Shown here piece by piece: positions 24,826 through 59,645 of a DNA stretch of 64,000 nucleotides (the stretch's first letter is position 1; each line of letters opens with the position of its first letter). A model generated the notes under the pieces. That model made no database searches. It had not been told where the DNA came from and saw only the letters and a program-made list of their open reading frames with translations. The stretch comes from Boletus sp. NGJ. Its lineage: Eukaryota > Basidiomycota > Agaricomycetes > Boletales > Boletaceae. The position numbers and the translations under genes are program-made. Location: contig JAGTXK010000119.1 in NCBI GenBank assembly GCA_019096195.1, forward strand, positions 434,001-498,000, in the 5' to 3' direction.

Positions 24826-26316
24826 ATGTCTGTCTCGTCTGGTTTTACAGAGCGTTCTCTCTACCATACTCGGCTACCCCCAACTCCCGTGATCCACAGA
24901 CAGTTCCTCAACGATCACTTCTCTGGGCTTTCACGAGGAGGATTTCCTGCTGGTGGATACACACCCGCCGTCCAAGCCTTTCTCAAGGAACTCGACAAAG
25001 ACCCAATAAACAAGGAAGAAATACTCTCCCTGTTCAACGTGGCTATTGAACAAGCACAGAAATTCAGCGAGGTATGACTGAATAGACGCCACGACAACTT
25101 CGCAAAACTGAAAACTTGCTTCTTCTAGTGGGCTGACCAGGATACAGAGTACAAGGTCAAAGACTTTAATGATTTCGTGCAGAAGCTTGACAAAATCGTT
25201 GGTGGGCCGCCCAAGTTCTACAAGGCCAATATTGGCCAAGACACCATCGTTGGCGATCCAATTGGTGTACCGGTGTATTTCATCTTTGATTTGATCAGCA
25301 ATACCCCCGCGGGTTATAGGTTGTTATGTCGGAATGATGTCAACGCTGCGCTCAAGGCTTTGTTGACTAAATGGGGCAAATACCTTGAAAGTGAAGCATC
25401 CAGTTCCGCCCTTACCGACAAGGAGGGAGGGTGGTTCAGTGATTCCGCCTTGGCATTTTTAGAGTCCGACCTCGGGGACCTACACTTCGATGACACTTAC
25501 ATCACCGAGCTGGAGAAGCCCCAACGCTACAAGACCTGGGATTCGTTTTTCACCAGAAAGTTCAAGCAGAAGAGACCAGACGGGAAACCCGTCCGGCCCA
25601 TCAATCCCCAACGAGGTGACCACTCTTTCTTCATTTATAATCCCTGCGAGTCCACCGTCCTTTGCTCTGCCTCGGATGTCCGAAGTTGCGACACGTTCTG
25701 GATCAAGGGCAAGAATTATTCTCTCTACGAAATGCTGGGTGGCGATGAATACTGCGATTTGTCCAACTACGCCAAAGACTTGGAAGGCGGAGCGATTATT
25801 CTGTCGTACCTCGCTCCCCAAGATTATCATCGCTGGCACAGCCCTGTTGCCGGTACTGTCCTGGCGGCCAAAATACTGGATGGTAGCTACTATGCCAATG
25901 ATGTCGCCGTTGAACATGTCCCCGACTTCTTGTCGGGTGATTCAAACGGCGCCCATATGATCCGTTTGCAACCCTGGCTCAACCTTGCCTCTACCCGCAC
26001 CGTGTTAGTCATCAAGCCGACGGACGTTAATTCGCACATCGACCTGATCGCCTTCATCCTAATCGGAATGGTGGAAGTGTCCTCTTGCGAGATCACCTAT
26101 GACAAGAGATCCACGCCCCATCCCGAACAGGTCGAGGTCGGAACGGAACTTGGAATTTTCCACTTTGGTGGATCTGCATACGCGCTCGTCGTGAAGCCGG
26201 AGAAAGGGTACAAGGTTATATTCCAAGATGTCTACGATTCCCCTGTCAAGTCGGGCCAGCACCGCTGGATCCACTCGGTCATTGCGCAGGTTCGGCCGGA
26301 GAATCAGTCATGGTAA
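24826..26316 (+). CDS. Phosphatidylserine decarboxylase family enzyme (PsiD-like)
   Basis: Two exons (24826-25071 and 25129-26316) encode 477 residues. The N-terminal half (KDFNDFVQKLDKIVG to LLTKWGKYLES) matches the extra domain found before the catalytic part in fungal PSD-like decarboxylases, including the tryptophan decarboxylase PsiD. The catalytic half contains WDSFFTRKFK, NPCESTVL, the histidine motif DYHRWHSPVAG (about residues 314-324), GMVEVSSCEITYD and FHFGGSAYAL. Self-cleavage in this family occurs before the serine of the Gly-Gly-Ser site, here near residue 431, producing the pyruvoyl cofactor. All these residues are present, so the enzyme looks active. There is no mitochondrial presequence or C2 domain, unlike PSD1 and PSD2. 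It therefore resembles the soluble amino-acid decarboxylase branch; the substrate is not predictable here. No neighbouring kinase, methyltransferase or P450 forms a cluster with it. Confidence 0.92.
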
Positions 26317-26894: not shown

Positions 26895-27042
26895 GCATCA
26901 GCCTGAAATAATGCTGGGAGCACCACGATCTATTCCAAGATGTACACTTCACCACCACCCCACATAGAGAGCAAACATAAGTACGTGTCGAGTTCAGATA
27001 CTGTAAAAGTTGTCTCTCGACCCCAAATCAATCTCGTGGATC

Positions 27043-28434
27043 TCACTCCTCAGCCTGAGAAACCCGCTTCCTGTACACTTGGTTGACAAGGTCGTTGAGC
27101 AGGTCTACTTCATCGATCGTCTTCTTCGACATCTTACGCAGCAAGATGTCCAACAGACTGTTGTTGGAGACAATGTAGACACGCTGGTCTGGGAGGTTGG
27201 CATCCTTCAAGTTAGTCTGAACAGTCTTCCTCGTCTCCTCGATGAATATTTTGCGTGCAGCCTTGCGCAACTCGTCGCGACGCTCGACTTCTTTTTCGTC
27301 ACCTCCTTCGCTATCATATCCCATATCTATCATGATATTGCGGATGTGTTGGTCGGCTTTCGATCGGATAATATACGTTGGGATGTTGTATCGCCTCGCG
27401 TTGACGAGGATGGCAATATCCGTCATGGTGAAACGATTGTCAAATAGCACGAGTATGCAGTCAAAGACATACAGTCCTTGCTCGTTGAAGTACTGCCAGT
27501 CGCGACATTTGATGGTACCCGCACCGGGAAGGTCGTACCAGACGAATGGGTTCTCGGGATTGGCATCTAGGTACCTGGCCATCTCAAGTGTCGTCTCTGT
27601 GACTCCTACAGCGGCTGCACCCGCCTCTCGGCCGGTTAAGCCACGGAAGGCATTAACAAGGGAAGACTTTCCACTACCAGAGATGCCGGCGACAGCGAAA
27701 TGGAAACGATCTTCCCTGTACTGGACGCGCCTCTTGGCGGCGGCAAGTTCTGCTGGAGTGGGCGTCACGACGGGCTGGATACCCTCCCTCAAACGTCTTT
27801 CGGCTTCTTCCTTGGCCACGTTTGCTTTCCTGGTCTCTTCGGCAGCTTTGCGGGCCGTCTCCTCAGCACGAGTCTTGCCGGCCTCGGCCTTGCGGCGCTG
27901 TTCATCCGCAGCCTTTTGTGCTTTCTTCGCCTTTCCCTTGGCAGCTGCCGCTGCCCTCTCTGCATCCTTGCGTATCTTCTTGGAACGTTTGCGTGCTTCC
28001 TCAGACTCCCGCGCAAGCTTCGCAGCCTCCTCCCTGGCAGTGTTGGCAGCCACCTCAGTGACCTCCTGAGCACGCCTCGCAGCACTCGCAACCTCCTCCA
28101 TCTGGGCCTTCATCCGCTTTACTTCCTCCGTTGCCCGTGCGGCTGCTTGTGTAGCTTCTTCCTGGCGCACGCGGGCTTGAATCCCATCTTGTTCGGCTCT
28201 TCGCTGGATCTGTTGGGCTCGCTCTTGAGCCACTCTGGCAGCCTGTTCGGCTTGTTCCCGAGCTTGCTCAGCCTCGTGGCGTGCTTGGATGTGAGCGAGA
28301 GTGGGGTTTTCTCTGTCCGCAGGACGGAAAGCACAGGTCAAGAGAATTGCAGCCAAGCCAATCATGGGTGCAAGCACGGCCCCAATCACGGGTACTAGCA
28401 CGGGTCCAATCATGGGTGCCAAAACATTTCCCAT
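27043..28434 (-). CDS. IRG-like GTPase with octad-repeat N-terminus and long charged helix, copy 1
   Basis: A single-exon gene of 463 codons. I chose the ATG at 28434 (MGNVLAPM) because the frame further upstream lacks an ATG and the same ATG is conserved in copy 2. Residues 2-33 are hydrophobic, with glycine every eight residues (2, 10, 18, 26) and proline at 7, 15 and 23. Residues about 45-235 form a long Ala/Glu/Lys/Arg/Gln helix, a likely coiled coil. The G domain follows: P-loop GISGSGKSS (250-258, Lys256), switch-2 DLPGAGT (Asp301) and G4 RSKAD (about 357-361). This matches immunity-related (p47/IIGP) GTPases, with the DLPG-GT form typical of that family. The C-terminus is another helical, charged segment. 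Membrane attachment through the N-terminus and GTP-driven assembly are inferred, not shown. Alternatives are an AIG1-like or dynamin-like GTPase. Confidence 0.85.
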   Translation of the reverse strand: MGNVLAPMIGPVLVPVIGAVLAPMIGLAAILLTCAFRPADRENPTLAHIQARHEAEQAREQAEQAARVAQERAQQIQRRAEQDGIQARVRQEEATQAAARATEEVKRMKAQMEEVASAARRAQEVTEVAANTAREEAAKLARESEEARKRSKKIRKDAERAAAAAKGKAKKAQKAADEQRRKAEAGKTRAEETARKAAEETRKANVAKEEAERRLREGIQPVVTPTPAELAAAKRRVQYREDRFHFAVAGISGSGKSSLVNAFRGLTGREAGAAAVGVTETTLEMARYLDANPENPFVWYDLPGAGTIKCRDWQYFNEQGLYVFDCILVLFDNRFTMTDIAILVNARRYNIPTYIIRSKADQHIRNIMIDMGYDSEGGDEKEVERRDELRKAARKIFIEETRKTVQTNLKDANLPDQRVYIVSNNSLLDILLRKMSKKTIDEVDLLNDLVNQVYRKRVSQAEE

Positions 28435-29750
28435 GATGCAAAGTCTATCGAAATCGCTCAAAAAGGAGGGCGAGGTGTAGGAAATCTGTCTGCGTCGATG
28501 ATCTGGAAGGGGTGTTAACGGGTGGACGATGGGGATGAGAAATGTTATATAACGTCTGCTTCCAACGCCGAGATGTAATACGACGAGCGTGTGACTCTGT
28601 GAGCATTAGCAGAAGACACCCTGGACCCAAGGCCGAAGGCCTCCAGACTCAAACCACGGCTTACACATTCATCTAAGAAGAGTGCCTGTGATAGAAGTTA
28701 CACGTGGTGCTGTCTCGATAACCGAAGCTTACCTCGTGTCTAGCTCTGGAATCTTGGAGTTGTCGGTTGCTCGAAAGCCGCAGTCATGCAGACAGCACCT
28801 CAAGACACTAGCAAGCACGATGGATCCACTGACTTGGTGAAACGCAATCCAGGCCTAGGAGATTATGCACGGGATTTCGACAGAGATGAATCTGCAGCAC
28901 TGAAATGAAGCTGCGGTGGTTCAACAAAGGCGTGAAGTGATCTGCGCCGCCCGAAATAGGAACGCGAGCGTGTGAGACAGGTCAGAGCGTATATATCGCC
29001 AATGCTTACAAAGTACGTGAATAAGTCATCTGACCAGAGGCACCAAGCCTATTGCAGAGAGGAAGGCATTGAAGGTGGATGGTAGATGGTGGGAATGGGT
29101 AGGCATGATGGTGAAACATCGCCGTCCACGTCGTCGTCGAGCTGTTGCATGGCTTGCTCTCTTTACCGTTGCGCTTCGTGGGTATAAGGCGTTTCAGAGG
29201 TATCGGGGCTTTGGGTATCGCGTATCTTGTCAGCACCGGGCTGAGTAACATTGGTGTGAGCAGTGGTAGGAGAGGCTCATTGGTCTGAACTTCTTGACCG
29301 TCGTTTCTTTGCAGCATGTCTGACGGGTCAAGGCAGCACTACGGTTTGAAGGTGTGATTGACGAACCACCGGATGAAGTCAAAGCTGTGGGCGTACCTTG
29401 AAGCGTGCTCGACGAGAGGAGGTAGAGAACACAAATTTCCTACATAGACTTCACGTTAGACGACTGCGTAAACGAGCGGCAGCAAGGAAACACTCTAATT
29501 TCTGCCATCTGCCTCGAAAGGCCGAGCGACCCTTACAAGGACTTGCGCCTTCTGGGCTCTCGTCGCAGGCCAACTGGCAGATTTGAACAGACACGGCTAC
29601 CGTCTTGACCGCGGCAATCTCTCTCTGCCACCTGAACGCCAGCTAGCTCAGACTGGAGGAGAATCGTTTTGCGAGCGGAGTCCTCGCTGGCCTGGCATTC
29701 CAATGATTGACTCGGCCACGGGAAGTTCTTCAAGAAGCGGACAGGCATAG
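28435..29750. other. Upstream part of repeat copy 1
   Basis: No domain-bearing gene. A minus-strand frame (29006-29317, 103 codons from an ATG) starting MLQRNDGQEVQTNEP is kept over about 75 codons in the second copy (119-codon frame at 41261-41620, the shared ATG being internal), after which the frames diverge. It could be a small unknown gene or chance. On the plus strand an Arg/Trp-rich frame around 29040-29250 is closed early in copy 2, which argues against it. Confidence 0.4.
28544..28553 (-). promoter_or_regulatory. TATA box of IRG-like gene 1
   Basis: GTTATATAAC, a palindrome, lies about 110 bases upstream of the start ATG. The same element is kept at the same distance in copy 2. Confidence 0.6.
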
Positions 29751-30126
29751 TCTCTGGACTATTGAAAAAATTGGCGAGTGTATTATTTGACCAATGTATC
29801 TCGTATGTACAATGCATCTTGGTGACTAGTTGAATCTTATATCCTCGTTTCGCTGTCCTGCTGTCTTGCTAGCGTTTTGCTTTACTCGCTGCCAGTACAG
29901 TCTCTGGGCTCGCGCTCAGTCAACATATCCTTGAGGACATGAATGTATCTGACGTGTACGAGAACGAGGGTGGTCGACCACGGGGATCGGTTTGTCAACT
30001 TTTTGCTTCATTCGAACCTCGGTTGTCACACAAGTTCAACCAAGCGCAGAATAACATGTTGATGTTCATGCTTGATTATAGTACTACAAGTACACACCAA
30101 CGGCGATATTATAGCAAAACCTCAAC
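29751..30126. other. Short spacer, nothing recognised
   Basis: About 375 bases between the direct repeat and the 3' end of the NTPase gene. I see no gene or repeat in it. Confidence 0.6.
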
Positions 30127-33100
30127 CTAGGACCGTCGGGCAGGCTTTCTTCGCACACTCGGGACATTCCTCCCATGTTCCCATACCATATGCTCGGGAG
30201 TGGCCGTACTGCCGAACTTGACCTGCGCATTCAGGTATTCAGTGTAGGGTCTTTCCGTCTCGGGAATCTGCTGAATATGTACGAGGTCTTGCAGAGTCCT
30301 CATGAGGGCGGGATATTTGGCTAAAAATGGATACGTCGCGGTATCGACTCCGGCAGCGTAAATCCGCAGGCAGCGGTCATCCACGTCCCACTCGGGAAAG
30401 GTCACAGAGAACGAGGATGGCTGACCAAGGTCGGCCAGGATAGCGATGTAAGGAAGGGGCTCGCCATCCGAGGGAGATGTGCTCTTGTCTTCGCCGCTCA
30501 GATTTTTATGTCGTCGGGTGATGGCATGCAACGCGTCTTTCGAACTCGCCGATTCTCGAGCCTTGTCGGAAACGAGAATATGCGACATTCGCGATATCGC
30601 CGATGTGTTTCCGGGACCACCTTTGAAATAGATCGGTATCACCTTGTCGATCAGAGGTTGTTGGTGGCAGCACTGCACTGCACTGGTCCTCTGCCAATGG
30701 CGCAGTGTCCACTCGTTTAAGCTACATGGTAGATCGTCAGACGCGAGGTCATGTTAATAAAAGTGGAATATGGAAGACGGACCTCAATTCATGCCCTGCT
30801 TTTGATCCAGCGATGTTCGCCTCCATGCATACCCAATGTGAGAAATTTATATATGCATTTTCGAACATTTTGCGTGCGAGCGATACTTGCATGTCCTGTT
30901 CGTCCCATATCTGCGGTCCAAAGATGAATTCGAGCCAATCCACGACCCGGATCATTTCGCAGTCCGCGAGATGTTCTTCCCATGTCGATGGCATTTGCAC
31001 GCTCTTCGACCGTGTGCGGATGAACAAGTCCTTGGCCAACAGCCACAGTAATCGGCTAGCTAGTTCGCCGCGTTCACCCATGTCGATCATGCCGGAGCTC
31101 ACAGACACCAGCAGAGTCTTCAACGCGAGCTCCAACTTTTCAGGCTTCTTGTGCAGATCGACTGCAGCCACGCACGACAGCAACGGTTCGGATGGATACT
31201 GTGTGAACCTCCAATTCCGGTCCAATGTCGTCGCAAGACAGACCCGCAGGTGACTCGCGACCCCGTTCTCCAGGTGCTCCACCGATTCCGGGTGTCCAAG
31301 CGTCACGTTCAGTCCGAATCGCTGTCCTAGTACTGCGAGCACATGTCCCGTTTTCTGTGCATTAAAGTCGTGTCCACCACATAACTTTGACGACGCTGTA
31401 TCTAGCACCCTTTCTGGAAATGTGAGTGCACCCTTGAGAGAACGCCATCTGTGGATGCCCTTGTTAGTCACCCGGTGCAACGAAGCGAAAAGAACATTAC
31501 AATGGTCTTCCATAGCCTGCGATGTGATCGATCTGGGAGACATCCTCGATGTCGATATCTTGTAGTCCGGATGCACTCTGATCCCATCCCAGTTGAGTGT
31601 AAGGCGGGAAAAGCTTCTCGCCCCGAATGGCAACACGGTCGGAATTGTCTGAAAAACGAGTGAATTGTGAGATCAGCAGAATGGGAAATGGCCACGAACG
31701 TTTCTGGTTAGGCGGGGAAAAATCAGCGACTTTGGAGGTGGTCGATGCGAATACCACCCAAACGGCATGATTCTGGTCATGTGAATACTCGTTCACAACT
31801 CTGCAGAAAACACCCGCAGGTCGATATGCTGCACGATGCATTGAGGCAAGCGGGTGTGCCTCGTCGACCGCGATCACCAGCTTCGGTTGGTCGGAATCAT
31901 CAGCAAACACCCTCTCGAGGGAAGTTGCCATTTTCCTATAGGCAGTAAGCAGACGGGCAGTGAAGTCCGAGGGTTGGGAGTCTGGCTCTGCTTCGAATCA
32001 GACTGCTCAGCTAGGTGTGCTGCAATACGAACTGGAATAATTACCAGAAAGGGTGAGCTTTTTGAGTTCATCGGCGGCTTTCTCAACGTCTGTTCCTGTG
32101 GCCTTATCATCAACGTCCGCCATGGAAGACAGGTCTTCTGTTGCACTAGGCCGCTGGCTGACCACACGGACGAGGTCAGCATGAACCTACAGAAGATTGT
32201 TAAATCAGGACTATGTAATGGAACTAGATATCATCACCTTTTTGTATCTTTCATATACTTTGTTGAAGAAATCGGCTCTGGCTGTGAACCTGGGAGGGTC
32301 GCTCATGTCGCACATTTGGCGGACCCAATGCATGATGCCCGCCTTAGTATTGCGGGTGGCATAACCTTTCGAGAGATATTCCTCGAGGGTATCAAAAAGG
32401 ACGGTGAAGAACGCGTAGCAGACGGTCCGGTACCCTCCCTCAGTAGGAGGGAATTCGGTCAAGATCTGTGATGGGATAGGATCACGAGCCGGGAAACCTA
32501 ATTTGTCTTGCTCCCCACGCAGGTTCATGTAGATGACTATTACATCTTTCTTGCTCAACTGAGAATAATTCAATCACCACAGCTGAATGCGAAACAAGTG
32601 ACACTACCTCGGTTAGCATTCTTGATTTTCCAGTGCCTGAACTTTGGACGATAGAACAGAATTTGGCATAATAACGGGGATCGTCCACGCTTTTGAATTG
32701 GTTTTCGTTGTGTGTCAAATATTCGTGGAAACCGTCAACGGCTGCGCCACGGTACTTTGCCTCAAAGGACCCTGACAAATTTTGACGTAGGTCTGACAAG
32801 CGAGGTCAGTCTATGTCTGCCAGTGGATAACCGGTCTGATGGCCCGGGGAAGTAAGCTACCAACCCTGACGAATAGTGGTTGCTGTTACTGCCAGCGCGG
32901 GTGGTTCTGGTGCTTTTCGGAGAATGGCTAGTGGAGACGGTATAAACCATTAGTACTAGATAAATGAACATGGGTACTGTACACGCACCGAGGTTTCGAA
33001 TCTCGTGATACGATTTGCTCTTCCAAGCAGAAGCGAGCTTATCTCGCAACCCTTCATGGGTCTTGATCAACTTTGATAAGTGCTTTTTATCCAGGTGACC

Positions 33101-33265
33101 GTTGGAGTGTTCAATGATAGCATCAAGGAGAGCGATATATTGAAGGTTGGAACTGAGATCGGAGACGTCACCCAAATCATCTTCAACGGCGTCATTTACT
33201 GCCTTGTCGAGCTCGCGATGGGTGGCGGTGTCGAAGCGATCTAGTGGGAAGCTGTCGAGGGGCAT
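30127..33265 (-). CDS. P-loop NTPase of an uncharacterised agaricomycete family (SSGTGKSR type)
   Basis: A multi-exon gene starting at the ATG at 33265 (MPLDSFPLDRFDTATHREL). The N-terminal region is helical (LSSNLQYIALLDAIIEH). After two introns comes DPRYYAKFCSIVQSSGTGKSR, whose SSGTGKSR is the Walker A motif near 32620. Further exons give DVIVIYMNLRG, RTVCYAFFTVLFDTLEEYL and a Walker B motif KLVIAVDEAHPL near 31885. The C-terminal 500 residues are helical and end with EWDVDDRCLRIYAAG, PFLAKYPALMRTLQDL and PEHMVWEHGRN; the stop is at 30127. The family is common in multicopy sets in agaricomycetes. It resembles STAND/AAA-type or Crinkler/RHS-type NTPases in its Walker pattern, but its role is not established. 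Exons can be joined in one frame, so the gene may be intact, at roughly 900 residues. Confidence 0.72.
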
Positions 33266-33849
33266 GTTGTGAAGTTGTTGCACGTCAAGCCATTTCGGAC
33301 GAGGCGCTTTATATCGCTGACAGTGCAGCTAGAATCGGTGGACAACATCCATCATATCCACAGCATTCGCACCACAGTACCTGGTCATTGTCCACCACAA
33401 TGAGGCGATGCAGCCATGATACAGGTTATTAATGAAACAATAAACTATGACTTCATGTGGAAACTGGACGACCGTGTGCGTTTGAAGCTATACACTCAGG
33501 CTAATACTGGCACCCTACCACCGACATCAGGTAACTTCTTGTGTCGCTTCAGTCACAGTCCAAGTTGTCGAGCTCGTGATGAGCGGTGTTGTCAAAGCGA
33601 TCTAGGGGACTTTCGACTCGGAGGTGCATGTCGTTGTTCCGCCACCTACAATCGATGGACAACATCTATCCAAAGCATTTGCCATGGTTCGCGGTGCGTT
33701 AACTGGTTAACTGTGATTTGTGCAATGAATATTATGGATCTCATTACCTTGCTTGCACGACCATCCCATCGCACACGTGATCGAAAAAATATGGACAAAT
33801 AATGTTCACACGTGATCTTTAGGCTGGTCGATAGAACGCACTCAAGTGA
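33266..33849. other. Spacer upstream of the NTPase gene, with a duplicated 5' piece
   Basis: Apart from the repeat at 33563-33684 I see no feature. Frames here are short and unrelated to known families. Confidence 0.6.
33563..33684 (-). repeat. Partial duplicate of the NTPase gene 5' end
   Basis: This stretch aligns with 33203-33372, which covers the first codons of the NTPase gene and its upstream region. Matching blocks are TTGTCGAGCTCG-GATG, AAGCGATCTAG-GG, GAGG-GCATGT and GGTGGACAACAT/GATGGACAACAT. About 50 bases are missing relative to the gene copy. It is best explained as the surviving 5' end of a former tandem paralogue whose body has been lost; the Helitron fragment now lies just upstream. 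Confidence 0.7.
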
Positions 33850-34686
33850 TCAATATTCTCTGTTTCGTTCGACTGCACTTGTCATACATGTTTGCGAGTG
33901 TGAATTGATGCCTGCGTCTTTCAGCGTCTGCCACCATGAAAAAGTCGCTTCGTTCATTCGCGACAATCGGTCATCCTCGGCTGTCAATTCGGGAAGATGA
34001 GGTGATGTTAAAGCTTTTTCATCGAAATCGCGCAGAAGTCGTATTGTCTCTCGTCCGGAACTTCTGGAGAGAGCAACGTATAGGTTGAACAAACTTAATT
34101 TACCGGTGGGTGGAGGTGCGAGATCGAGAATGACAGCCGGGATCGTTTGACCTTGAGTGCGATAGTCTGTGAGGGCGTACGCGGCGGTTATTGGCAATTG
34201 CGTTTGCGTGATTGTTCGTATTATCTTTTTTGAGTTTTCGTGCAGATTGAGACGGATGGTTTTCTTGATAGGACGGATTGGAATGATTGTCTCAGGTTCC
34301 ACACCGAAACGAGGTGCAAGCGAGTGTTGTTGTTTGACAAGGACGAAAGCGGGAGGATGAAGTAGGTCAACGACTCTGTGCGTCCGAGAAGGTGGCGGTT
34401 CCGCTTGATTTAAGACGATATCGACGACAGTACCGCGGGCTCCGTTCGTTATGTCTAGCTCCGTGTGGATGTTTTGAGTGATGAGGACTGGCATGCCTAT
34501 GGCGAGTTCTAGTATTTCTGGAAGTTCGATATGATCTGGATCTGAGGAACAACTGCGAACATGCATTGCATGCACTTCAGCAGCATTCAACGATCGTCGA
34601 GCGGTCCGATGTTCGGCTGGAATAACGAATATCTGGGAATTTGTTACTTTGCACATCACTAATTTTTGGCTTCGCCCCTGTGTCAC
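33850..34686 (-). mobile_element. Truncated Helitron: C-terminal part of a PIF1-like Rep-helicase
   Basis: A 278-codon frame contains the last helicase motifs of Helitron Rep-Hel proteins: ELPEILELAIGMPVLITQNI, LDITNGARGTVVDIVL, AYALTDYRTQGQTIP and LFNLYVALSRSSGRETIRLL. The Walker motifs, the nuclease domain and the N-terminal region of a complete element (usually over 1,300 residues) are absent, and sequence upstream of about 34670 is unrelated. The frame itself is still open, so the truncation is probably recent or the domain was captured. I could not identify the CTRR-type 3' terminus with its hairpin. Confidence 0.85.
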
Positions 34687-35928
34687 GGGATCGAAGGTCG
34701 TGGCTTATAATCAAGCGTTGTACATGATTACAGTAAAATGTAACGGTGATTGCTCTAGGTACATCCTCTCAGTAGTACCGTTGCCTATACCAAGCAAGGT
34801 ATCTGCCGACGCGGTCGGCACTCCCCAGTCCAAAGCAGGGTTTAACAGTAAGCTGTTCACGTGACCAATAGCTCAGCTTCGTCTCTACGTCTAGGCTCGA
34901 CGACCCATTGATGGCCGGAAGAAAAATGAGATGATACAGTCAGCGCAGATCAGTTGGTTTCTTGAGGCGCTGACTCAGGCTGCGATGCCTGAGAAACCCT
35001 GCTGTAATTCAATCGCTTGTAAGTTTTTCGGACTATAGACTCGATTTCCAACACCGTGCGCGAGGTACAGTCCTTGATGGATAGCAGGTGCATGATGGAC
35101 TCGGGTGTCTGTTCAAGTCAAGTGTTGGACCGACGTGGGCCTTTCAACGTTGCCAACTTTGAACATCCGGGAGGGAATGTACATAGTATTTATAGGGGAT
35201 TGTACGTCTTCTCCACGGAATCTGTCAAGAGGATTTTCAACTAAATTACCTTAACCTTGCAGGGGGTTCAGACAGCTGCTAGCTGGTGTTGGAAATCAGT
35301 TTTGGTATACCTTGACGCTTGCACGCAGTACCCGACGAGGCTTTTCACCGTGTCTGCAGTTCTTCCGTGATCGAGGACTCTCTTGCGACAATGCTCGAAG
35401 AAGTGTTCCTGGCCTACTTCTACTGCGATTTTCGAATCAAGAGATCTACGAACACTGTCGACTCGGAGGCGATGCACTCCATTCTCGTCTAGTTGGTCAC
35501 CTATCTCTGTGCCGCCGCTATAGTCGACTCAGAAAATACAGGATTAACGTCCACACCTGGGCCTCCAAACGAGGTACTCTTCTACACCGTGTTGTGGTAG
35601 TCTGGTCGCCAGCCCCCGTCTAATGAGGCAAGCCGTCGATACACAATCAACATACCTTACTCTATAGCATATAATATGCCCACAGCGTGTCCTTCACTGA
35701 GTACCCAAACGAGGCCCATTCTGAACACATTCGGTCAGAAATGCATTTAGGCCAGCCGCCATAGAACTCGACAGGTCAGCCGTTCCAGACTGGACGGTCA
35801 GCCTCCAACCCCAAGGGTATAAAATCCCTCGCGTGTAGTCATCCAAGGTCAGCTTTTTCGTCGTTCTCTCTCTGGTCGTTCTCTCCCTTCCAACGCCCAG
35901 ATCAACGACTGAAATTGCCAACGCCATC
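34687..35928. other. Interval with no recognised gene
   Basis: About 1.2 kb. Frames of 60-105 codons on both strands (for example 35312-35623) show no domain. The last 110 bases hold the TATA box and leader of the next gene. Confidence 0.55.
35818..35824 (+). promoter_or_regulatory. TATA box of the orphan basic-protein gene
   Basis: TATAAAA lies 111 bases before the ATG at 35929 and is followed by a pyrimidine-rich leader, a typical fungal core promoter arrangement. Confidence 0.5.
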
Positions 35929-37510
35929 ATGACCCCCAAGGATGGGCATCTGCCATGCTCCGTACGTCGTTCCCATGCTACCTTGGATGACATTCGTTCA
36001 TGGAGCTAACTTGGAAACTTAGATGATGGCGAGACCCAAATCTTTCGTGGTCTGCAGCATTACCACGAAATGGTGCGTTCCAACGGCAAAGAAGACGCCA
36101 ATGCGGAAGCTGTCACGGATCCAGCCGGCGACGTCGACCAAGGAACGGCCGGCCGGCCCTCGTGGGGATCCGACGAAGCTGACGTCCCGACTTGGTTGTT
36201 TACCGACTGTCGTCCCAAAGGTGGACCTGCGCCGCCCCCCGCCTAAGCCGATGTTGATGTTAGTTCCGAACAAGACGACCAAGGTGCGGAAGTCGCCGCC
36301 TTTACCACTAGTGCCGTCTTTGTCCAAGAAGACGGTTGTCCCAAAGCCGTCGAAGATCGTGGCGAGGTTGAAGGAAGGCAAGCTCACGGGTGGGTACCCG
36401 GAACCAGTGAGGTCGACGCAGGACATGAATACGAAGGAACTCCCACCCCGACCCAGTTGCGTTCCGCGAGCTCGCACTTACCGGTCTCGTGTCGGCGTTA
36501 TGATGGCTGCTAAGGAGAAACAAGATGTCACGGTCAAGGTTTCCACTACTGGTCCTCGCAACCCAGTAATGGCTCGCCAAAAGGTGTCCGTCAACATTGG
36601 CACCAGCAGGGCTGCAGGGCGCGTCAAGGTTACGGAAACCTTCGTCGAGAAAGCTATGGTGGCTGGCACCTATCGCACTGGGGCGCCGACCACGAATAGG
36701 TGGCTGACAACACGAAAGGCGTTTGCCTATCCACATGCTGTCGAGCCAGCAGTCCACATCGCGTTGTCACGACCGGGATCTCCAGATCTGTCTTCTTTCC
36801 CATCGCAGAGCTGGATAACCATCGATGTAGATCTCAAACAGAACAAGGGACCGACACAGATCTGTGGCAACGAGACGCTCTCCAGCATGGACGACGTGCC
36901 GAACCCAGGTGTTGCAGGAACGGCCAAGGGTTCGTGTGGAAGTTCCGAGCCCGAGTCTGTTTCTTCCTCCCCTACATCATCGCCGTCCCCGACGTTCGTT
37001 GAAACCACGGAGAGTCTATCAGGGCCTATAATTGGATTGGACGGTACTGTCAAGATCAGCACGCCAACCAAAAAGCCATCTAACAAGGTTTCGCACACGG
37101 TTTGCGCTGCGACGATCATCTCGCGCTCTGGGACTGGTACCTCAAAGGGCCAAACTCATGAAGGTGATGGACAGAAGCCACCACCCTCGCCCACCAAGAT
37201 TTCGGACACTATGAACAGAACCCGAATGATGGTCCGTGGTGCCGTTGAAATCGCGCGGGACTTCTTCTCGCCTTCGCGACGTAAGTTGCGTTCCGGTCCC
37301 GAGACCACTACCTTCAAGTCAGGGGGTACCAATGTGTCACGGATTCGAAAACTGTTTATTCCTCCGCTCGACAAGGATGCGAAGGTATCAAAGAATCCGA
37401 CGACGCAGAACGAGAACGAGATGCCTAGAGCGAGACAGGTGGCGAGTGATGGTGTTGCGATTGTCACGAAGGTCAGGACGTCCAGTTCAGACAGTCCTGG
37501 TCAAGTTTGA
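35929..37510 (+). CDS. Orphan basic, Pro/Ser/Thr/Lys-rich protein
   Basis: A short first exon (35929-35961, MTPKDGHLPCS) splices in phase (intron 35962-36022, gtacgt...cttag) to a 495-codon open frame, giving 506 residues. I recognise no domain. Composition is rich in Lys, Arg, Pro, Ser and Thr, with clusters such as KPSKIVARLKEGK, SSSPTSSPSPTF and SPSRRKLRSG. It has no signal peptide or membrane helix and is probably largely disordered. A 1.5 kb stop-free frame with a TATA box and a consistent intron supports a real gene. An overlapping antisense frame of 152 codons (36019-36477) is the chief doubt. It lies between the two IRG-like gene copies and is not itself duplicated. Confidence 0.5.
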
Positions 37511-39096
37511 ACCGTGGAGACGCGTGGGTAGAGGTGGGTGATATGCGGTATGGTGAGGTTTGAGTGCATTTATTTTATTTTGTTTTTCCTTTCATTTTCC
37601 ACTTTTTTTCGTGGATTTCTTTCTTCTTCCGTGGCTTCCGTTTGCGGCCTCATCTCCCTCTGACGTCGGGTCCCTGGACTTGACCGACGCCCACAAGGCG
37701 ACTTCCTGCGCCTTTTCACACCATCCCCGGGCCCACAACTACATCGGAGGTAGGTCTAGTCAACTGCCGTTCCGAGTATCACCGAGCTCCTCACACAAGC
37801 CCTCTATAATGCCCCATCGGTCACCGTTTGACGACATCGATTAAGCCACTTGTACTAGCTGGTACCCCTCTCGCCAACGACTCTCTCGCCCCTGTTGACC
37901 TTGGATGCACCTGATGGTATGACTCTCCCATCTATTCACACTATGACTCACTCTTCGACCTTTCTCAGCTTCAAATATCGTGCCTAGTTAGTTTCCGACC
38001 GTGTTGGGTATTCGCATCCCTCCGAACTGATCGATACGTCAAAGACCACTGTTTATGTTCCTTGGCGACATCCCTCCATCCTACCAAGTTTCCGAGGGTA
38101 CGTTCTCTCCAACATTCCGAATACCGACTGTTTCTTCGACCCTTAACAACATCGACACTATCAACGCAAGACTCGCGCATACCTCAGATCTCTCCGAAAA
38201 GCCAAGCATCGATTGTCCCTCCACTCCGACGACCTCGTCGCCGTTTGCATACACCCTAGTGCCTCCCAGTCTCAGATCCAGCAGAATCGCCACCAGCATG
38301 AACGTCCACCACGCCCACCACTTGCACCCCCTTCCTTCATGACGACACCTTCTCCCTTCCTCTTTCCTGACAGCCTGCACATGCCTTTTCTCCAGCACGC
38401 CCAATTTAGGGCGCGGGGAATGGTTGCAGGCGGTGGTGGCGAATTGGTGTTCTCGCTCGGGCCAGGTTTGACTGATCGGTGCCTGCCTATCTTTTGAGGC
38501 TACACATGCAATGTATCCCGCGGCGAGGTTCGGTACGGACGATGCGACAACGATGATGGCAGACTCGGCTCGGGACGGGTTTGCGCGAGTCCGAACGGCG
38601 ATGGTTGAGACGCGTTGGACAAGGTTGACGGTATATGACAGTTGGAGACTTGGACGAAGTAGGCGAGGTCGATGGTAAGGGAACAACGCGGGTCCTTTCG
38701 AGGTCGACCAAGCGCGATTTTTTCGATCCTGCGGGACTCGGTCAAGTTGGATGACGTCAAAGTATGAATGTTGAAGCTGGGTTGGACATGGTCGACGGAT
38801 TGGGGCGATATTTGGCGACGTTCATGGCGATGTCGAGGTGCGGTGGTTGAAGCCGGACAACGCTCGATGTCCATTCGTGGGCTGTCTTCCGGACTCGTGA
38901 TGAGTGGTTTGGACGGAACTGGGTTCGGTGCGAAGTCGAGTTCAGGAGATGTCTCGGGTGACCCTTGCCTCAATCCCTTGACCTCCCTTACGGCGTTGGA
39001 GTCAAGCATTCGGAAGGTCATCTGGTCCTTTTCTTCATTGTTCTTTTTCACGGCCAGTTTGACTCATTTTCTTCTTCTTCTTTCCCTCTTCTCAAT
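37511..39096. other. Interval before repeat copy 2
   Basis: About 1.6 kb. Overlapping frames of 130-200 codons occur on both strands (for example minus 38500-39051, Ser/Pro-rich, and plus 38055-38342), but none has a domain or clear splicing. It may contain an unknown small gene that I cannot define. Confidence 0.45.
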
Positions 39097-39247
39097 GCAT
39101 CAGCCTGAAATAATGCTGGGAGCATCACGATCTATTCCAAGATGTACACTTCACCACCACCCCACATAGAGAGCAAACATAAGTACTACGTGTCGAGTTC
39201 TGATGCTGTAAAAGTTGTCTCTCGACCCCAAATCAATCTCGTGGATC

Positions 39248-40639
39248 TCATTCCTCAGCCTGAGAAACCCGCTTCCTGTACACTTGGTTGACAAGGTCGT
39301 TGAGCAGGTCTACTTCATCGATCGTCTTCTTCGACATCTTACGCAGCAAGATGTCCAACAGACTGTTGTTGGAGACAATGTAGACACGCTGGTCTGGGAG
39401 GTTGGCATCCTTCAAGTTAGTCTGAACAGTCTTCCTCGTCTCCTCGATGAATATTTTGCGTGCGGCCTTGCGCAACTCGTCGCGACGCTCGACTTCTTTT
39501 TCGTCACCTCCTTCGCTATCATATCCCATATCTATCATGATATTGCGGATGTGTTGGTCGGCTTTCGAACGGATAATATACGTTGGGATGTTGTATCGCC
39601 TCGCGTTAACGAGGATGGCAATATCCGTCATGGTGAAACGATTGTCAAATAGCACGAGTATGCAGTCAAAGACATACAGTCCTTGCTCGTTGAAGTACTG
39701 CCAGTCGCGACATTTGATGGTACCCGCACCGGGAAGGTCGTACCAGACGAATGGGTTCTCAGGATTGGCATCTAGGTACCTGGCCATCTCAAGTGTCGTC
39801 TCTGTGACTCCTACAGCGGCTGCACCCGCATCTCGGCCGGTTAAGCCACGGAAGGCATTAACAAGGGAAGACTTTCCACTACCAGAGATGCCGGCGACAG
39901 CGAAATGGAAACGATCTTCCCTGTACTGGACGCGCCTCTTGGCGGCGGCAAGTTCTGCTGGAGTGGGCGTCACGACGGGCTGGATACCCTCCTTCAAACG
40001 TCTTTCGGCTTCTTCCTTGGCCACGTTTGCTTTCCTGGTCTCTTCGGCAGCTTTGCGGGCCGCCTCCTCAGCACGAGTCTTGCCGGCCTCGGCCTTGCGG
40101 CGCTGTTCATCCGCAGCCTTTTGTGCTTTCTTCGCCTTTCCCTTGGCAGCTGCCGCTGCCCTCTCTGCATCCTTGCGTATCTTCTTGGAACGTTTGCGTG
40201 CTTCCTCAGACTCCCGCGCAAGCTTCGCAGCCTCCTCCCTGGCAGTGTTGGCAGCCACCTCAGTGACCTCCTGAGCACGCCTCGCAGCACTCGCAACCTC
40301 CTCCATCTGGGCCTTCATCCGCTTTACTTCCTCCGCAGCTCGCGCGGCTGCTTGTGTAGCTTCTTCCTGGCGCACCTGAGCTTGAATCCGATCTTGTTCG
40401 GCTCTTCGCTGGATTTGTTCGGAGAGCTCTTGAGCCACTCTGGCAGCCTGTTCGGCTTGTTCCCGAGCTTGCTCAGCCTCATGGCGTGCTTGGATGTGAG
40501 CGAGAGTGGGGTTTTCTCTGTCTGGAGGACGGAAAGCACAGGTCAAGAGAATTGCAGCCAAGCCAATCATGGGTGCAAGCACGGCCCCAATCACGGGTAC
40601 TAGCACGGGTCCAATCATGGGTGCTAAAACATTTCCCAT
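39248..40639 (-). CDS. IRG-like GTPase with octad-repeat N-terminus and long charged helix, copy 2
   Basis: A paralogue of the gene at 27043-28434, also 463 codons from the conserved ATG at 40639 and also a single exon. I count about ten amino-acid differences. Eight lie in residues 39-190 or so of the helical region (for example FRPAD to FRPPD, QERAQQ to QELSEQ, EQDGIQ to EQDRIQ, RVRQ to QVRQ) or elsewhere in the helix. One is at the helix-G domain junction (RRLRE to RRLKE). Only one (GREAG to GRDAG) falls inside the G domain. The octad N-terminus, the P-loop GISGSGKSS, DLPGAGT and RSKAD are unchanged. The frame is intact and the TATA box is kept, so both copies are probably functional genes. 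The open frame extends further upstream, but that extension lacks a counterpart in copy 1. Confidence 0.85.
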   Translation of the reverse strand: MGNVLAPMIGPVLVPVIGAVLAPMIGLAAILLTCAFRPPDRENPTLAHIQARHEAEQAREQAEQAARVAQELSEQIQRRAEQDRIQAQVRQEEATQAAARAAEEVKRMKAQMEEVASAARRAQEVTEVAANTAREEAAKLARESEEARKRSKKIRKDAERAAAAAKGKAKKAQKAADEQRRKAEAGKTRAEEAARKAAEETRKANVAKEEAERRLKEGIQPVVTPTPAELAAAKRRVQYREDRFHFAVAGISGSGKSSLVNAFRGLTGRDAGAAAVGVTETTLEMARYLDANPENPFVWYDLPGAGTIKCRDWQYFNEQGLYVFDCILVLFDNRFTMTDIAILVNARRYNIPTYIIRSKADQHIRNIMIDMGYDSEGGDEKEVERRDELRKAARKIFIEETRKTVQTNLKDANLPDQRVYIVSNNSLLDILLRKMSKKTIDEVDLLNDLVNQVYRKRVSQAEE

Positions 40640-42560
40640 GATGCAAAGTCTATCGAAATCGCTCAAAAAGGAGAGCGAGGTGTAGAAAATCGGCGTGTAT
40701 CGATGATCTAGACGGGGTGTGGACGGGTGGACGATGGGAATGAGAAACGTTATATAACGTTCGCTTCCAACAGCGAGATGTGGTACGACGAGCGTGTGAG
40801 TGTTAGCAGAAGACACCCTGGACCCATGGCCGAAGTCCTCGAGACTCAAACCACGAGCTTAAACGTTCATCTAAGAAGAGTGCCTGTGATAGAAGTTACA
40901 CGTAGTCCCTGTCTCGATAAACGAAGCTTACCTCGAGTCTAGCCCCGGGGTCTTGGGTTGTCGGTTGCTCGAAAGCCGCAGTCATGCAGACAGCATCTTG
41001 AGACACTAGCAAGCACGATGGACCCACTGACTTCTATGGGTGAAATCCAATCCAGGCCTAGGATATTATGCACGGGATTTCGACGGAAGTGCCAGATCTG
41101 CAGGACTAAAGTTTGATGAAGCTGCGGTGATTCAACAAAGGCGTGAAGTGATCTGCGCCGACCGAAATAGGAGTCACACGCGAACGTGTGAGACAGGTCA
41201 GACATGTCAGTATTGCGTATGTATCGCCAATGCTTACAAAGTGCGTGATACTATCATAAGTCATCTGGCCAGAGGCACCAAGCCCATTGCAGAGAGGAAG
41301 GCATGAAGGTGGATGGTAGATGGTGGGAATGGGTAGGCATGATGGTGAAACATCGCCGTCCACGTCGTCGTCGAGCTGTTGCATGACTTGCTCTCTTTAC
41401 CGTTGAGCTTCGTGGGTATAAGGCGTTTCAGAGGTATCGGGGCTTTGGGTATCGCGTATCTTGTCAGCGCCGGGCTGAGTAACATTGGTGTGAGCAGTGG
41501 TAGGAGAGGCTCATTGGTCTGAAGTTCTTGACCGTCGTTTCTCTGCACCATGTCAGACGGGTCAAGGCAGCAATCGAGACAACTGCGAGTGTGCTCGACG
41601 AGAGGAGGCAGAGAACACAAATTTCCTACATAGACTTCACGCCGTTAGACGACTACGTAAACGAGCGGCAGCAAGGAAACATTATACTTTCCAGTGTCAT
41701 CTGCCTCGAAACGCCGAGCGACGCTTACAAGGACTCGCGCCTTCTGGGCTCTCGTCGCCGCAGGCCAACTGGCAGATTTGAACAAACACGGCTATCGTCT
41801 TGAACCGTGGCAATCTCTCTGCCACCTGAACGCGGCCAGCCAGCTCAGACTGGAGGTGAATCGTTTTGCGAGCGGAGTCCGGTTCGGACCCTCGCCGGGA
41901 AGTTCTTGAAGCGGATAGCCTTGCTTCATGTCGTCTTGTTGTACGACCGGCCTGGCTCTGCACGCTGCGAACGGTCGTTGACCGATCTTTCTGAAAGGCT
42001 ACTATTCGCTCGCACAAGTCGCGCTTCGGCTTCGGCTTCCTGGCCATGGGCCAATGCAGCTGTTTGTATGCCTCCAACGACGGTGATGCGATCCTTGAGT
42101 GAGATGACTTCAATGATGATAACCCGGACGACAAGTACACTGTCAAGTTTGATATCGAGCTCGCATGTCAGTGGTCGATCAGATCCAACATCAGCGCCAG
42201 TCACAACATGGATTACTCAACTACTAGTACACGTACACAGCACCAAGTGTTCTAATGCTACTACTTCACAAACATTATTCTACGTCGACATCGTCAAACT
42301 TCAAGGTGTATGCATGCCTCTGTGATATGTGTCGCCAATGCTCGCAGCCGCTGCTCACCATCATCTTCAAGGACATCACAGTCCCACTACTCCTGTGGGA
42401 TTAGTCTGAACTCAGGATCGTCGAAAACGTGTTGGGGAGTCATGCAGCCTGTTGCACTTTCAAACTCGTAGAAACAAAACAGAGCTTGGTCCCCATTGCA
42501 CTAATGTCATAGAGGGAAGGAAGGGATGCATCCTCTGAAGGAAGGCAATTAACACTAAGA
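40640..42560. other. Upstream part of repeat copy 2 and flanking DNA
   Basis: No supported gene. The minus-strand frame shared with copy 1 (start MVQRNDGQELQTNEP, within 41261-41620) is discussed in the findings. From 41923 to 42560 I see nothing recognisable. Confidence 0.5.
40749..40758 (-). promoter_or_regulatory. TATA box of IRG-like gene 2
   Basis: GTTATATAAC, at the same place (about 115 bases upstream of the ATG) as in copy 1. Confidence 0.6.
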
Positions 42561-45343: not shown

Positions 45344-48300
45344 TCATCCGACCCAACATTCATCCCAACTACTCCCGTGTACCATCTTGCTCACATCAAG
45401 CTCCACGCCCCGAGGTATCACCATGACGTTCGCTCGGGGATAATGCCACAACGTGTTCCGCCAGTGTGCCGGTACCCAAAAGAGAAGAAGGTGCCGGCGT
45501 ACGCCAACGACCTCGACCCATCCGTCCTCTCCCACTCGAATGGGATCCGTCTTATCTGTGATGTCGTCCACCCGAGGGTAGTCGTGTAGGGCATGATGAG
45601 CGACGGGGGAGAACCGGACGTCTTGTCTCTCGTAATCAACCCTCCGAATGTTGGATCCGAGCGTGCCTTTGCCTGTGGGCGATGGAGAGACGGGACGACG
45701 TAAGACCGCCTGAAGGTCCCACACACGAACAGTACCGTCATCCGAGCTTGAGACTATCCACTCGGCGTCGAACGCGACGGATCGGACACGGGCGGTGTGC
45801 CCGATCAGAGGACTACCAAGTTGAGACCCTGTCTCGACGTCCCACACTCGAACACTACTATCGTCCGAGCCCGACACCATGTGTCTCCCATCAGGCGAGA
45901 ACACGACCGACCTGACTGTGTTGGTATGCCCCTCGAGCGTGCGGACTGGTGAACCCGTTTTGCACGTTCCACAGTCGGATGGTGTTATCCGACGAACCAG
46001 ACACAATCCGTGCGCCATCCGGGGAAAGTGCGACTGAGCGGATTGGCTGAGTATGCCCTGTGAGCGGGCTGCCAATGACCGACCACGTCGCAGCGTCCCA
46101 CACCCTGATCGTTTTGTCAGCTGAACCCGAGACAACGTGCTTGCCATCGAGGGAAAACGCGATGGAGTTGACAGCATCCTTGTGCGCTTCGAGACTAGCG
46201 ATGGTCTCCGAGCTTGCCATGTCCCACACGCGGATAGTGCTATCATCCGACCCTGACGCGACCCACTTTCCGTCGGGAGAAAATGCGACTGAATTGACCT
46301 GGCTGGCGTGGCCTCGGAGGGGACTGCCTACCTCCGCCTTCCCCTCCATGTCCCAAATTCGGACCGTCTTGTCCGATGAGCCCGAAGCGATTCTCGTCCC
46401 GTCCGACGAGAGAGCCACTGACACGACCGCAGAGGTGTGTCCTTTGAATGGTTTGCTGGTAACCTGCGTGCCAGTCACCACATCGTACACCCTGATCGTG
46501 GCATCAAATGACCCCGAAACGATTTGCTTCGTAGCTGGCGAAAACGCGACCGAAAACACGGCGCTGGTCTGCCTGCCAACCTTTGTGCTCAACTTGGTAT
46601 CCCATGTTCGGATCGTACCGTCCCAGGAACCCGATACGACGGACCTGACATCGTGCGAGATGGCTACCGAGCTGACCTTGCCAGCGTGCTTCACGAGGGG
46701 ACTTCCAACCTGCGAGTACGTCGCAGTGTCCCACACCCTGACCGTGCGATCAGTTGACCCCGATACGATGTAGCTGCCATCGACCGAGAACGCGACAGAG
46801 GTGACATTGTCAATGTGCCCTTCAAGAACGCCGACTTGTGAACCAGTTCTAAAGTTCCATAGTCGAATGATGGAATCATCTGATCCCGACGCAACGAGTT
46901 TGCCGTCGGGAGAGAAAGCGACCGAGTTGATTGGACCTGCGGGGCTGTTGATTGGATCGCCGACTTCTGACCATGTCAGAGTGTTCCATACACGAATGGT
47001 ACCATCGGATGAACCTGAGACGATGTAGTCGCCGTTGATCGAGGTCGCGATTGTGTTGATCGGGTTGGTGTGTCCCTCGAGCATGCCAACTTGTGCATGG
47101 GCTTTGACGTCCCAGATTCGGATGGTGCTATCTGACGATCCAGAAGCGATCCAGGTCGCATCTGGAGAATACGCAACCGAGTTCACCGAACCCGTGTGTC
47201 CGTGTAAAGGACTACCAATCTGCAACCCAGTTTGGGCATCCCAGATCCGGATTGTCATATCTGACGAACCCGACACGATGATCTGGTCATCTGGAGAGAA
47301 AGCGATGGACATGACAAAACCACTGTGTTTGAGAGCATCGCCGACTTCCAACCCCGTTTCGGTATCCCATACTCGAATTGTTGAGTCATCTGAACCCGAC
47401 GCGATCCGTTTCCCGTCTCGCGAGATGGCAACAGAACGAACCCAGTCGGCGTGTCCAGTCAGTGAAAGCTGAGCGGAGGGCCATTCCACGTCGTGTCCCG
47501 CAACGACACGAGGAGCCCGAGAAACCTTTGAAGCGAACAGCTTGGCCAAGGCAGATTGTTCAGGTGCGAAAGGCAGCGCGGAGAGGTAGAGGTGAGGAGT
47601 GGACTGTGTAATGACGCTACCGAACATCTCGACGAACTTCTGCACATCGCGCATCATGGTCAACGTGTCTGTGTACTCGTCACGACCCTAATTCCAGTGT
47701 AACTCGATAAGATCGCTGGCACAAAAAACGGAGTTATTCACTCACTTCAATCAGTTTGCTTGCAGTAGCCAGCGTTGCGTAAACTTCGTCAACGCGGCCC
47801 AGAAGACTGAGCGCTTCAAGCCAGAAAAGAGATCGTTCATTACTGAAGAAGGACTGTAGTTCATTGGCCAAGCGCGTGTCGAATGTTGAACCATGAACAT
47901 GGGCAGTCCAGAACAGACAGGAATAGGACAGATGAGGGGATATGCGTTCTCTGACGCGTTGAACCAAGTCGGGGACATCGGAATTGCGTAGGTACGAGCT
48001 TTCCAATCCACATATATTGAACCGCAAAGCATTCTTCATGCTGGCTAGCGTAGAAATTGCAAGGTCCTGGTGTATGCCATTCAGGTCAACGAAGAACTCC
48101 CCGCTCCGCGCGCGATCTATGAGGAAGTCGTGGAAGGAAGCATGGAAAAGTCGGACAGGAGAGTTCGGACCGGCAATACCAGTGACAAGGGGAGCTATGG
48201 ACATTAGGATGGGCTCGACATTGAAATGGTCCTGTGGTATGGAAAAGAAACGCCGCATTTCATTCAGAGAAGCCATCGGGAGTGGTTCGAGCATCCCAAG

Positions 48301-59092: not shown

Positions 59093-59645
59093 TTCTGCGA
59101 GGACGAGAGTGTAACACTGTACGAATTTAGTACGTCACGACCATGTTACAAAGGAAAAAAAGATCTGCGTTACACAAGGGTATCGCGTGTACAAGTACCA
59201 GCAATCGAGGTCGACGATCAGGCGCATAGCTTTGCAATTGCCTGGGGCACGCTTGACTACGGATTCGCCCAACGCGCAAAGACGCGGTGTCCACGTTCGT
59301 CTCGGGGCCCGCAACGACGCAGCCTGGTGTTGGGGGCACTGCAGGTCCGAGGATTAGCAGTCTTGGGTATGTATAAATAACACCTCTTCGTAAAAGAGCA
59401 AGTTCTGCAGATGGATGAACCAACGAGTTCCAATTGTTCGACCGACAACTTGTCGTTCGCTGTTACTGACAGTTTGACCGGCAGATCAGGCGAATGTCGG
59501 TCGTCGAGGACGGCCAGTCACTGCGAGTCCAAACGAACGCAGACCGCAGTGCGAATTACATAACACTTGCTGTATGCGACCTCGTTCCGGGGTATAAGTA
59601 GAGGGGCTTCCTCAGAGCCCACGTTGAAGTTCCTGCCCCATTACA
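59093..59645. other. Intergenic region with ZNFX1-like promoter
   Basis: About 550 bases. It contains the TATA box listed below; nothing else is recognised. Confidence 0.6.
59593..59598 (+). promoter_or_regulatory. TATA box of the ZNFX1-like gene
   Basis: TATAAG in the context GGGGTATAAGTAGAG lies 53 bases upstream of the ATG at 59646. Confidence 0.5.

Follow-up and report, generated by a model that had tools for sequence, protein, structure and literature searches.

A Duplicated Gene Pair in Boletus Encodes GTPases with an IRG-Type G Domain and a Candidate Membrane Anchor

Two GTPase Genes in a Duplicated Segment

A 64,000-nucleotide stretch of the Boletus sp. NGJ genome (assembly GCA_019096195.1, contig JAGTXK010000119.1, positions 434,001 to 498,000 of the forward strand; "the window" below) was analysed for two genes that a first-pass annotation, made from the sequence alone, had described as related to the immunity-related GTPases (IRGs, or p47 GTPases). 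IRG GTPases are vertebrate anti-parasite factors. Both genes, referred to as copy a and copy b, were intact on the minus strand as uninterrupted frames of equal length, and their start-to-start distance was 12,205 bp, as the annotated spacing of about 12 kb had indicated (Table 1). The proteins predicted from these open frames began with MGNVLAPMIG and ran to the stop codon. Both carried the complete GTPase signature that had been reported (GISGSGKSS, DLPGAGT and RSKAD), and the hydrophobic octads noted at the N-terminus were recovered as NVLAPMIG, PVLVPVIG and AVLAPMIG. The TATA box listed as identical was also found, with the element GTTATATAAC lying 117 bp 5' of each ATG; the genes have this element in common because both sit in one duplicated segment.

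The duplication of about 2.8 kb that carries the two genes is recent. In 100-column windows, aligned positions were 97–100% identical from the 3' flank through the G domain and some of the rod, 92–98% identical in the remainder of the gene and 80–99% identical in the 5' flank, which was gapped. The copies differed in 22 codons, with a single residue changed between the G domains.

Table 1. Positions in the window of the two GTPase genes, their parts and the duplicated segment
Feature	Position	Strand	Description
IRG-like GTPase gene, copy a (C65a)	27043..28434	-	CDS including stop, 463 aa, single uninterrupted frame; Pfam IIGP E 3.1e-20
IRG-like GTPase gene, copy b (C65b)	39248..40639	-	CDS including stop, 463 aa, single uninterrupted frame; Pfam IIGP E 1.1e-19
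Copy a, hydrophobic N-terminal segment, residues 1-36	28327..28434	-	Three octads xVL[AV]P[MV]IG; Kyte-Doolittle 19-mer maximum 2.46
Copy a, predicted Ala/Glu/Arg/Lys-rich helical rod, residues 42-217	27784..28311	-	Hydrophobic period 3.56; power 4.25 vs <=2.28 (500 shuffles)
Copy a, G domain, IRG type, residues 240-463	27046..27717	-	G1 GISGSGKSS, switch-I E280, G3 DLPGAGT, R334, G4 SKAD
Copy b, hydrophobic N-terminal segment	40532..40639	-	Kyte-Doolittle hydropathy
Copy b, predicted helical rod	39989..40516	-	Power 4.39 vs <=2.58 (500 shuffles)
Copy b, G domain, IRG type	39251..39922	-	Differs from copy a G domain by one residue
Copy a, TATA element	28544..28551	-	117 bp upstream of ATG
Copy b, TATA element	40749..40756	-	117 bp upstream of ATG
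Duplicated segment, first copy	26895..29683	.	92% over 2,844 aligned columns; identity profile
Duplicated segment, second copy	39097..41880	.	92% over 2,844 aligned columns; identity profile

Family Assignment of the G Domain

An IRG relationship of the G domain was strongly supported by profile and sequence searches. Copies a and b scored 73 and 71 bits with the Pfam IIGP model (PF05049; cut-off 24), and the second family for both, MMR_HSR1, reached 26 bits. A sequence search of the Protein Data Bank (PDB) with a window protein returned 17 matches at E ≤ 1, the best 13 of which were all IRGs (Irga6/IIGP1, Irgb10, Tgtp2 and "Interferon inducible GTPase 1C"; E 1.4e-16 to 1.3e-13). The fourteenth match, and the first outside the IRGs, was the small GTP-binding protein 5kh0 at E 0.067. 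The part of the protein ahead of the G domain, searched alone, gave no PDB match at E ≤ 0.001.

The genome itself (32.8 Mb in 141 contigs) contained 14 IIGP matches, seven above 70 bits and the others below 29 bits, and a whole-protein search found the same seven genes and none further at E ≤ 0.001. These genes were distributed over three loci, with two in the window (contig C65), four on contig C73 (834–858 kb) and one on contig C109. Each was a single open frame free of internal stops, and each matched the IIGP model. For all seven paralogues, AIG1 (PF04548) and septin (PF00735) were missing at E ≤ 1 from the 22 families listed, and Dynamin_N (PF00350) appeared for only two, with a best E of 0.3. 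A profile built from five of the seven matched Irga6 in the PDB at 1.4e-19 and EngB at 2.3e-4, the 13 best of 40 matches being IRGs, and the most divergent paralogue, C73d, likewise had IRGs as the 13 best of 17 matches, followed by EngB at 0.0013. The best NCBIfam matches, YsxC and HydF, were both far under their cut-offs, and PADLOC gave weak matches only (best E 0.007). The first-pass annotation had named in advance a better match to a septin, an AIG1 protein or a bacterial-type GTPase as the result that would speak against its p47 assignment. No such match occurred, and the assignment held. A tree in which the seven G domains were combined with Irga6 and five rows from outside the IRGs left seven of its ten inner branches open, with long branches meeting, and was not used.

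The genes could alternatively encode a bacterial-type GTPase of the EngB/YsxC, HydF or Era class that reached the genome by transfer and resembles IRGs in its motifs through convergence. The single open frames of all seven genes would agree with such an origin, as would the position of EngB as best non-IRG match in two of the three PDB searches; however, the E values of the top IRG match and of the top match outside the IRGs lay some 15 orders of magnitude apart in favour of the former, and mammalian IRG frames are likewise intronless (PMC1297648). Searches outside the genome also argued against it. None of 85 stretches found by profile search in genome contigs and none of 42 stretches from viral contigs was confirmed, and plasmids and phages yielded no relatives at the thresholds applied. 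A 64-residue piece matched 27 loci in genome contigs, and the eight of these inspected by eye were six HydF-like proteins, one YsxC-like protein and one ABC protein. Bacterial sampling covered 299 genomes of one phylum around a centre genome, Butyribacter intestini (phylum presumably Bacillota), together with 14 control genomes. Among the 299, only the centre genome matched IIGP (34.6 bits over profile positions 5–100), and the fungal profile had one match of 26 bits, in a different genome. The control genomes that matched IIGP were Synechococcus elongatus and Escherichia coli, both below cut-off. We consider a bacterial-type origin very improbable.

Catalytic Residues

From before G1 to past G4, the G domains of C65a, C73d and the C109 protein aligned with mouse Irga6 over 123 residues, with one-residue gaps and 33–37% identity. 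PMC4774019 names ten Irga6 residues as crucial for oligomerisation and hydrolysis, and nine of them could be aligned, K196 falling outside the alignment. Five residues (G103, E106, R159, D164 and N191) were identical in all seven paralogues, and S132 was replaced by Thr in all seven. In copy a, G277, T307 and R334 take the positions of G103, S132 and R159. At the position of E106, which corresponds to E280 of copy a in the alignment, every paralogue had Glu and none of five non-IRG controls did (one had Gln, the other four a gap). Hydrolysis of GTP in the fungal proteins would accordingly be expected to depend on this glutamate and on pairing of G domains.

Domain Architecture

The order of parts was the same in all seven paralogues, with an N-terminal segment, a rod and a C-terminal G domain. 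The N-terminal segments were variable, 9–41 residues long, and had anchor-like features. Five were hydrophobic, with a 19-mer mean of 1.74–2.46 on the Kyte–Doolittle scale (threshold 1.6 per 19-mer), the N-terminus of C73a was amphipathic (MGWFRTVLRWLG), and C73d had the acylation-like start MGGGHSSHC. These features suggest that the paralogues are attached to membranes. The rod comprised 176–180 residues with 24–30% Ala, and in every paralogue its hydrophobic period of 3.55–3.56 had a power that none of 500 shuffles reached. With a helix rise of 1.5 angstrom per residue, the rod as a helix would span about 26 nm. The charged helix of the first-pass annotation was retained as a prediction, at 176 residues (42–217, by the boundaries used here) in place of about 190.

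The C-terminal helical bundle of IRGs was absent: IIGP matches stopped at profile position 157–198 of 375, and copy a ended 102 residues past the G4 Asp. In IRGs, the helical domain is built from an N-terminal and a C-terminal part that lie on either side of the G domain (PMC4774019). No helical domain of this type was recognised in the fungal proteins, in which the rod appears to take the place of the N-terminal part. An architecture different from that of animal IRGs had been proposed from the first reading of the DNA, and this proposal was borne out.

In addition to the alignable G domain and its five conserved residues, the fungal proteins shared with Irga6 and other IRGs an MG start (six of seven) and an uninterrupted coding frame. 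Unlike IRGs, they begin with a variable segment and an Ala-rich rod of about 176 residues, end with the G domain, and have Ala or Ser after DxPG where IRGs have a large hydrophobic residue. At the level of the G domain the protein is, as judged from these comparisons, a variant of the IRG kind; by architecture it is not a full member.

Signs of Constraint and Probable Gene Conversion among the Paralogues

The ratio of nonsynonymous to synonymous substitution rates (dN/dS) of the G domain was 0.06–0.54 in the 15 pairs lacking C73d. The highest ratios (0.39–0.54) were found among C73a, C73b and C73c, and the five pairs with C109 gave 0.09–0.17. These ratios below 1, as point estimates, are signs of constraint. 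A selfish or degenerating repeat family with no function for the organism would be in line with the position of the duplicates on either side of a helicase fragment (33853-34704), perhaps part of a mobile element according to weak matches; the open frames of all seven genes and a dN/dS under 1 in each of the 15 pairs that could be used make it the least probable of the readings considered here.

C73c and C73a were 98% identical in the DNA of the rod and 93% identical in that of the G domain. The anchor, 5' flank and 3' flank of C73c were 77, 71 and 69% identical to those of C65a and 80, 71 and 55% identical to those of C65b, versus 55, 52 and 44% to those of C73a (gapped flank alignments; one flank pair, shuffled ten times, gave 38–47%). 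The simplest account would be that the body of the gene was converted between C73a and C73c while the anchor was left alone. This single pair fits, without proving, one machine addressed to several membranes.

Proposed Mechanism

We interpret the family as a membrane-tethered GTPase with an IRG-type G domain that is activated by G-domain pairing, and give this reading a probability of about 0.6. The N-terminus, which is hydrophobic, amphipathic or apparently acylated depending on the paralogue, would fix the protein to an internal membrane by insertion or acylation, and the stiff helix of about 176 residues would hold the G domain at a distance from it. With GTP bound, G domains would form head-to-head pairs of the Irga6 kind, and pairing would position the switch-I glutamate E280 (E106 of Irga6) and trigger GTP hydrolysis. 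Pairs formed on a single membrane could crowd or coat it, with possible remodelling, and pairs formed across two membranes could tether them. Different anchors might direct similar bodies to different membranes, and gene conversion may have kept the bodies alike.

A number of observations weigh against this reading. MMR_HSR1 was likewise above its own cut-off (26 vs. 22 bits), and matches to the IIGP model are not confined to IRG-type proteins, as an AIG1-like triple G-domain protein of the same genome reached 59.7 bits with it over repeated domains. At the position of Ras Q61, six paralogues had Ala and one had Ser, unlike the large hydrophobic residue after DxPG that PMC1297648 describes for IRGs and calls far from diagnostic. 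Five identical residues of nine are little above the overall G-domain identity of 33–37%, and the Irga6 interface residues E77, K161 and K162 differed in the paralogues. The catalytic E106 is the sole discriminating residue, because G103, R159, D164 and N191 were each found in at least one of the five non-IRG controls. IRGs are targeted to membranes by N-terminal myristoylation or an amphipathic helix, and the common myristoylation pattern was fitted by only one of the seven N-termini, that of C73d. The Ala-rich rod could also exist as a single helix and not as a dimerising coiled coil. With respect to selection, the six C73d pairs had saturated dS (≥3) and were uninformative, and dS in the pairs with C109 was already 1.3–2.

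The triple G-domain protein was a 700-aa open frame of tandem AIG1/MMR_HSR1 type on C73 (421.4–423.5 kb; L018:3391-5490). This AIG1/GIMAP-type GTPase resembles the IRG-like proteins in exceeding the IIGP cut-off within the same genome. It differs from them in that its AIG1 and MMR_HSR1 scores (79.4 and 121.6 bits) were both above its IIGP score, and in two of its aligned domains the E106 position was gapped.

Genomic Surroundings and Possible Roles

The window contained 178 open frames of at least 100 aa, at most 24 of which, besides the two GTPases, were scanned against Pfam. Two adjoining open frames at 45894-49284 on the minus strand, 5 kb from copy b, encoded an NTPase of the NACHT (NPHP3_N) type with 12 WD40 stretches after it. 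The genome contained 18 matches to NPHP3_N-type NACHT, one of them on the window contig and the others on contigs different from C73 and C109. HET domains were searched exon by exon (PF06985, E ≤ 0.001; counts are lower bounds) and gave at least 53 matches in the genome, none of them on the window contig. At the other loci, one HET match lay roughly 12 kb away from the C73 cluster and another roughly 21 kb away from the gene on C109; with 53 matches in 32.8 Mb, this was not counted as an association. HET is a fungal domain, and its presence in a genome of this size that had no relatives in the prokaryote set agrees with the fungal origin given in the first-pass annotation. The surroundings of the C73 cluster were of housekeeping type, with TFIIB, Barentsz, RRN3 and lipin domains.

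We rejected NPHP3_N-type NACHT and HET as recurrent partners, as neither recurred closely at the three IRG-like loci among these matches. Five genes of a family lacking Pfam matches, membrane-protein-like by eye, lay around and within the C73 cluster (C73:823-867 kb), and further matches to this family occurred on C50, C137, C89, C6 and C63. This family was likewise rejected as an obligate partner, none of its 15 matches being on C65 or C109. A defence island is unsupported by recurrence, because NACHT, HET and the family interleaved with the C73 cluster do not recur across the loci. The GTPase genes had been annotated as lying beside NLR-like and HET genes, of which the NLR-like neighbour was found, as a single NACHT-WD40 gene, and the HET neighbour was not. 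The suggestion of defence or allorecognition drawn from these neighbours retains that one gene in its favour and is weak, given the lack of close NACHT or HET recurrence at the three loci.

A cell-autonomous defence or allorecognition GTPase would load onto the membranes that surround invaders, sites of mycovirus replication or compartments of incompatible fusions and disrupt them, as mouse IRGs do with parasite vacuoles. The IRG-type G domain and the NACHT-WD40 gene near copy b are consistent with this role, as are the duplication and clustering of the genes and the hints that they evolve in concert, features that many immune gene families have. Fungi also have Mx-like proteins, of a family antiviral in animals (PMC11789081). 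Against defence stand the distribution of NACHT and HET matches described above, in particular their absence from C73 and C109 and from the window contig, respectively, and the housekeeping-type genes around the C73 cluster, and we regard it as unlikely.

Somewhat ahead of defence, though still improbable, we place a housekeeping trafficking tether, in which anchor and rod would form a long-range vesicle tether and the IRG type of the G domain would be incidental. The anchor-like segment joined to a rod and a switch domain, the dN/dS below 1 and the surroundings on C73 would suit such a tether, but recent duplication, gene clustering and probable gene conversion are unusual for core trafficking genes. 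Doubtful, and more so than defence in general, is a fungal IRG-like defence system in which one body, kept uniform by gene conversion, would be combined with exchangeable anchors that address it to the membranes of invaders or non-self compartments.

Comparison with Described Systems

PMC11789081 describes the fungal Mx-like proteins (MxF), relatives in fungi of a GTPase family that interferon induces in animals. The IRG-like genes resemble MxF in this respect and differ in that MxF are of the dynamin type, for which only the two Dynamin_N matches mentioned above were obtained. A 2005 survey (PMC1297648) recognised unambiguous IRG homologues in vertebrates only, with look-alikes in cyanobacteria and nematodes. 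Among the matches listed in our literature search, which covered titles and the beginnings of abstracts and had most subscription journals outside it, no paper named a fungal IRG member. Four papers with PF05049, IPR007743, IPR030385 or "IIGP domain" were found, none of them fungal by its title or the start of its abstract. In protein databases, basidiomycete proteins are probably already filed under the IIGP domain.

The membrane-tethered GTPase proposed here would offer a natural experiment, an IRG G domain that keeps the catalytic glutamate but lacks the helical bundle of IRGs. Should the GTPase be defensive, fungi would join the story of cell-autonomous immunity, and a true fungal IRG-like defence would mean that IRG-type immunity predates animals or lies outside them. 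If it is not defensive, it may reveal an older job of the IRG domain.

Other Genes near the IRG-Like Loci

A phosphatidylserine decarboxylase open frame (25129-26313, plus strand) adjoined copy a. Between the two copies, open frames at 30127-33328 on the minus strand resembled exons of one gene and included a P-loop piece, SSGTGKSRMLTE. Three pieces of this region were scanned and had no Pfam matches; the P-loop piece is, in our view, reminiscent of fungal Crinkler-like proteins. The helicase fragment at 33853-34704 (minus strand) was similar to the C-terminal part of a Pif1/UvrD-type helicase and perhaps belongs to a Helitron-like element, with Pfam scores below cut-off. The fungal NLR-type gene at 45894-49284 contained four 133-nt DNA repeats that were 61–73% alike. 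The region 59628-63875 (plus strand) contained a piece with a CCCH zinc finger at 59628-60287 and one of AAA_11 helicase type at 62250-63875, which we take to be reminiscent of ZNFX1/NFX1-type helicases. On C109, a Dicer-like open frame with two RNase III domains (L019:8069-10000, minus strand) was located about 2.4 kb from the IRG-like gene.

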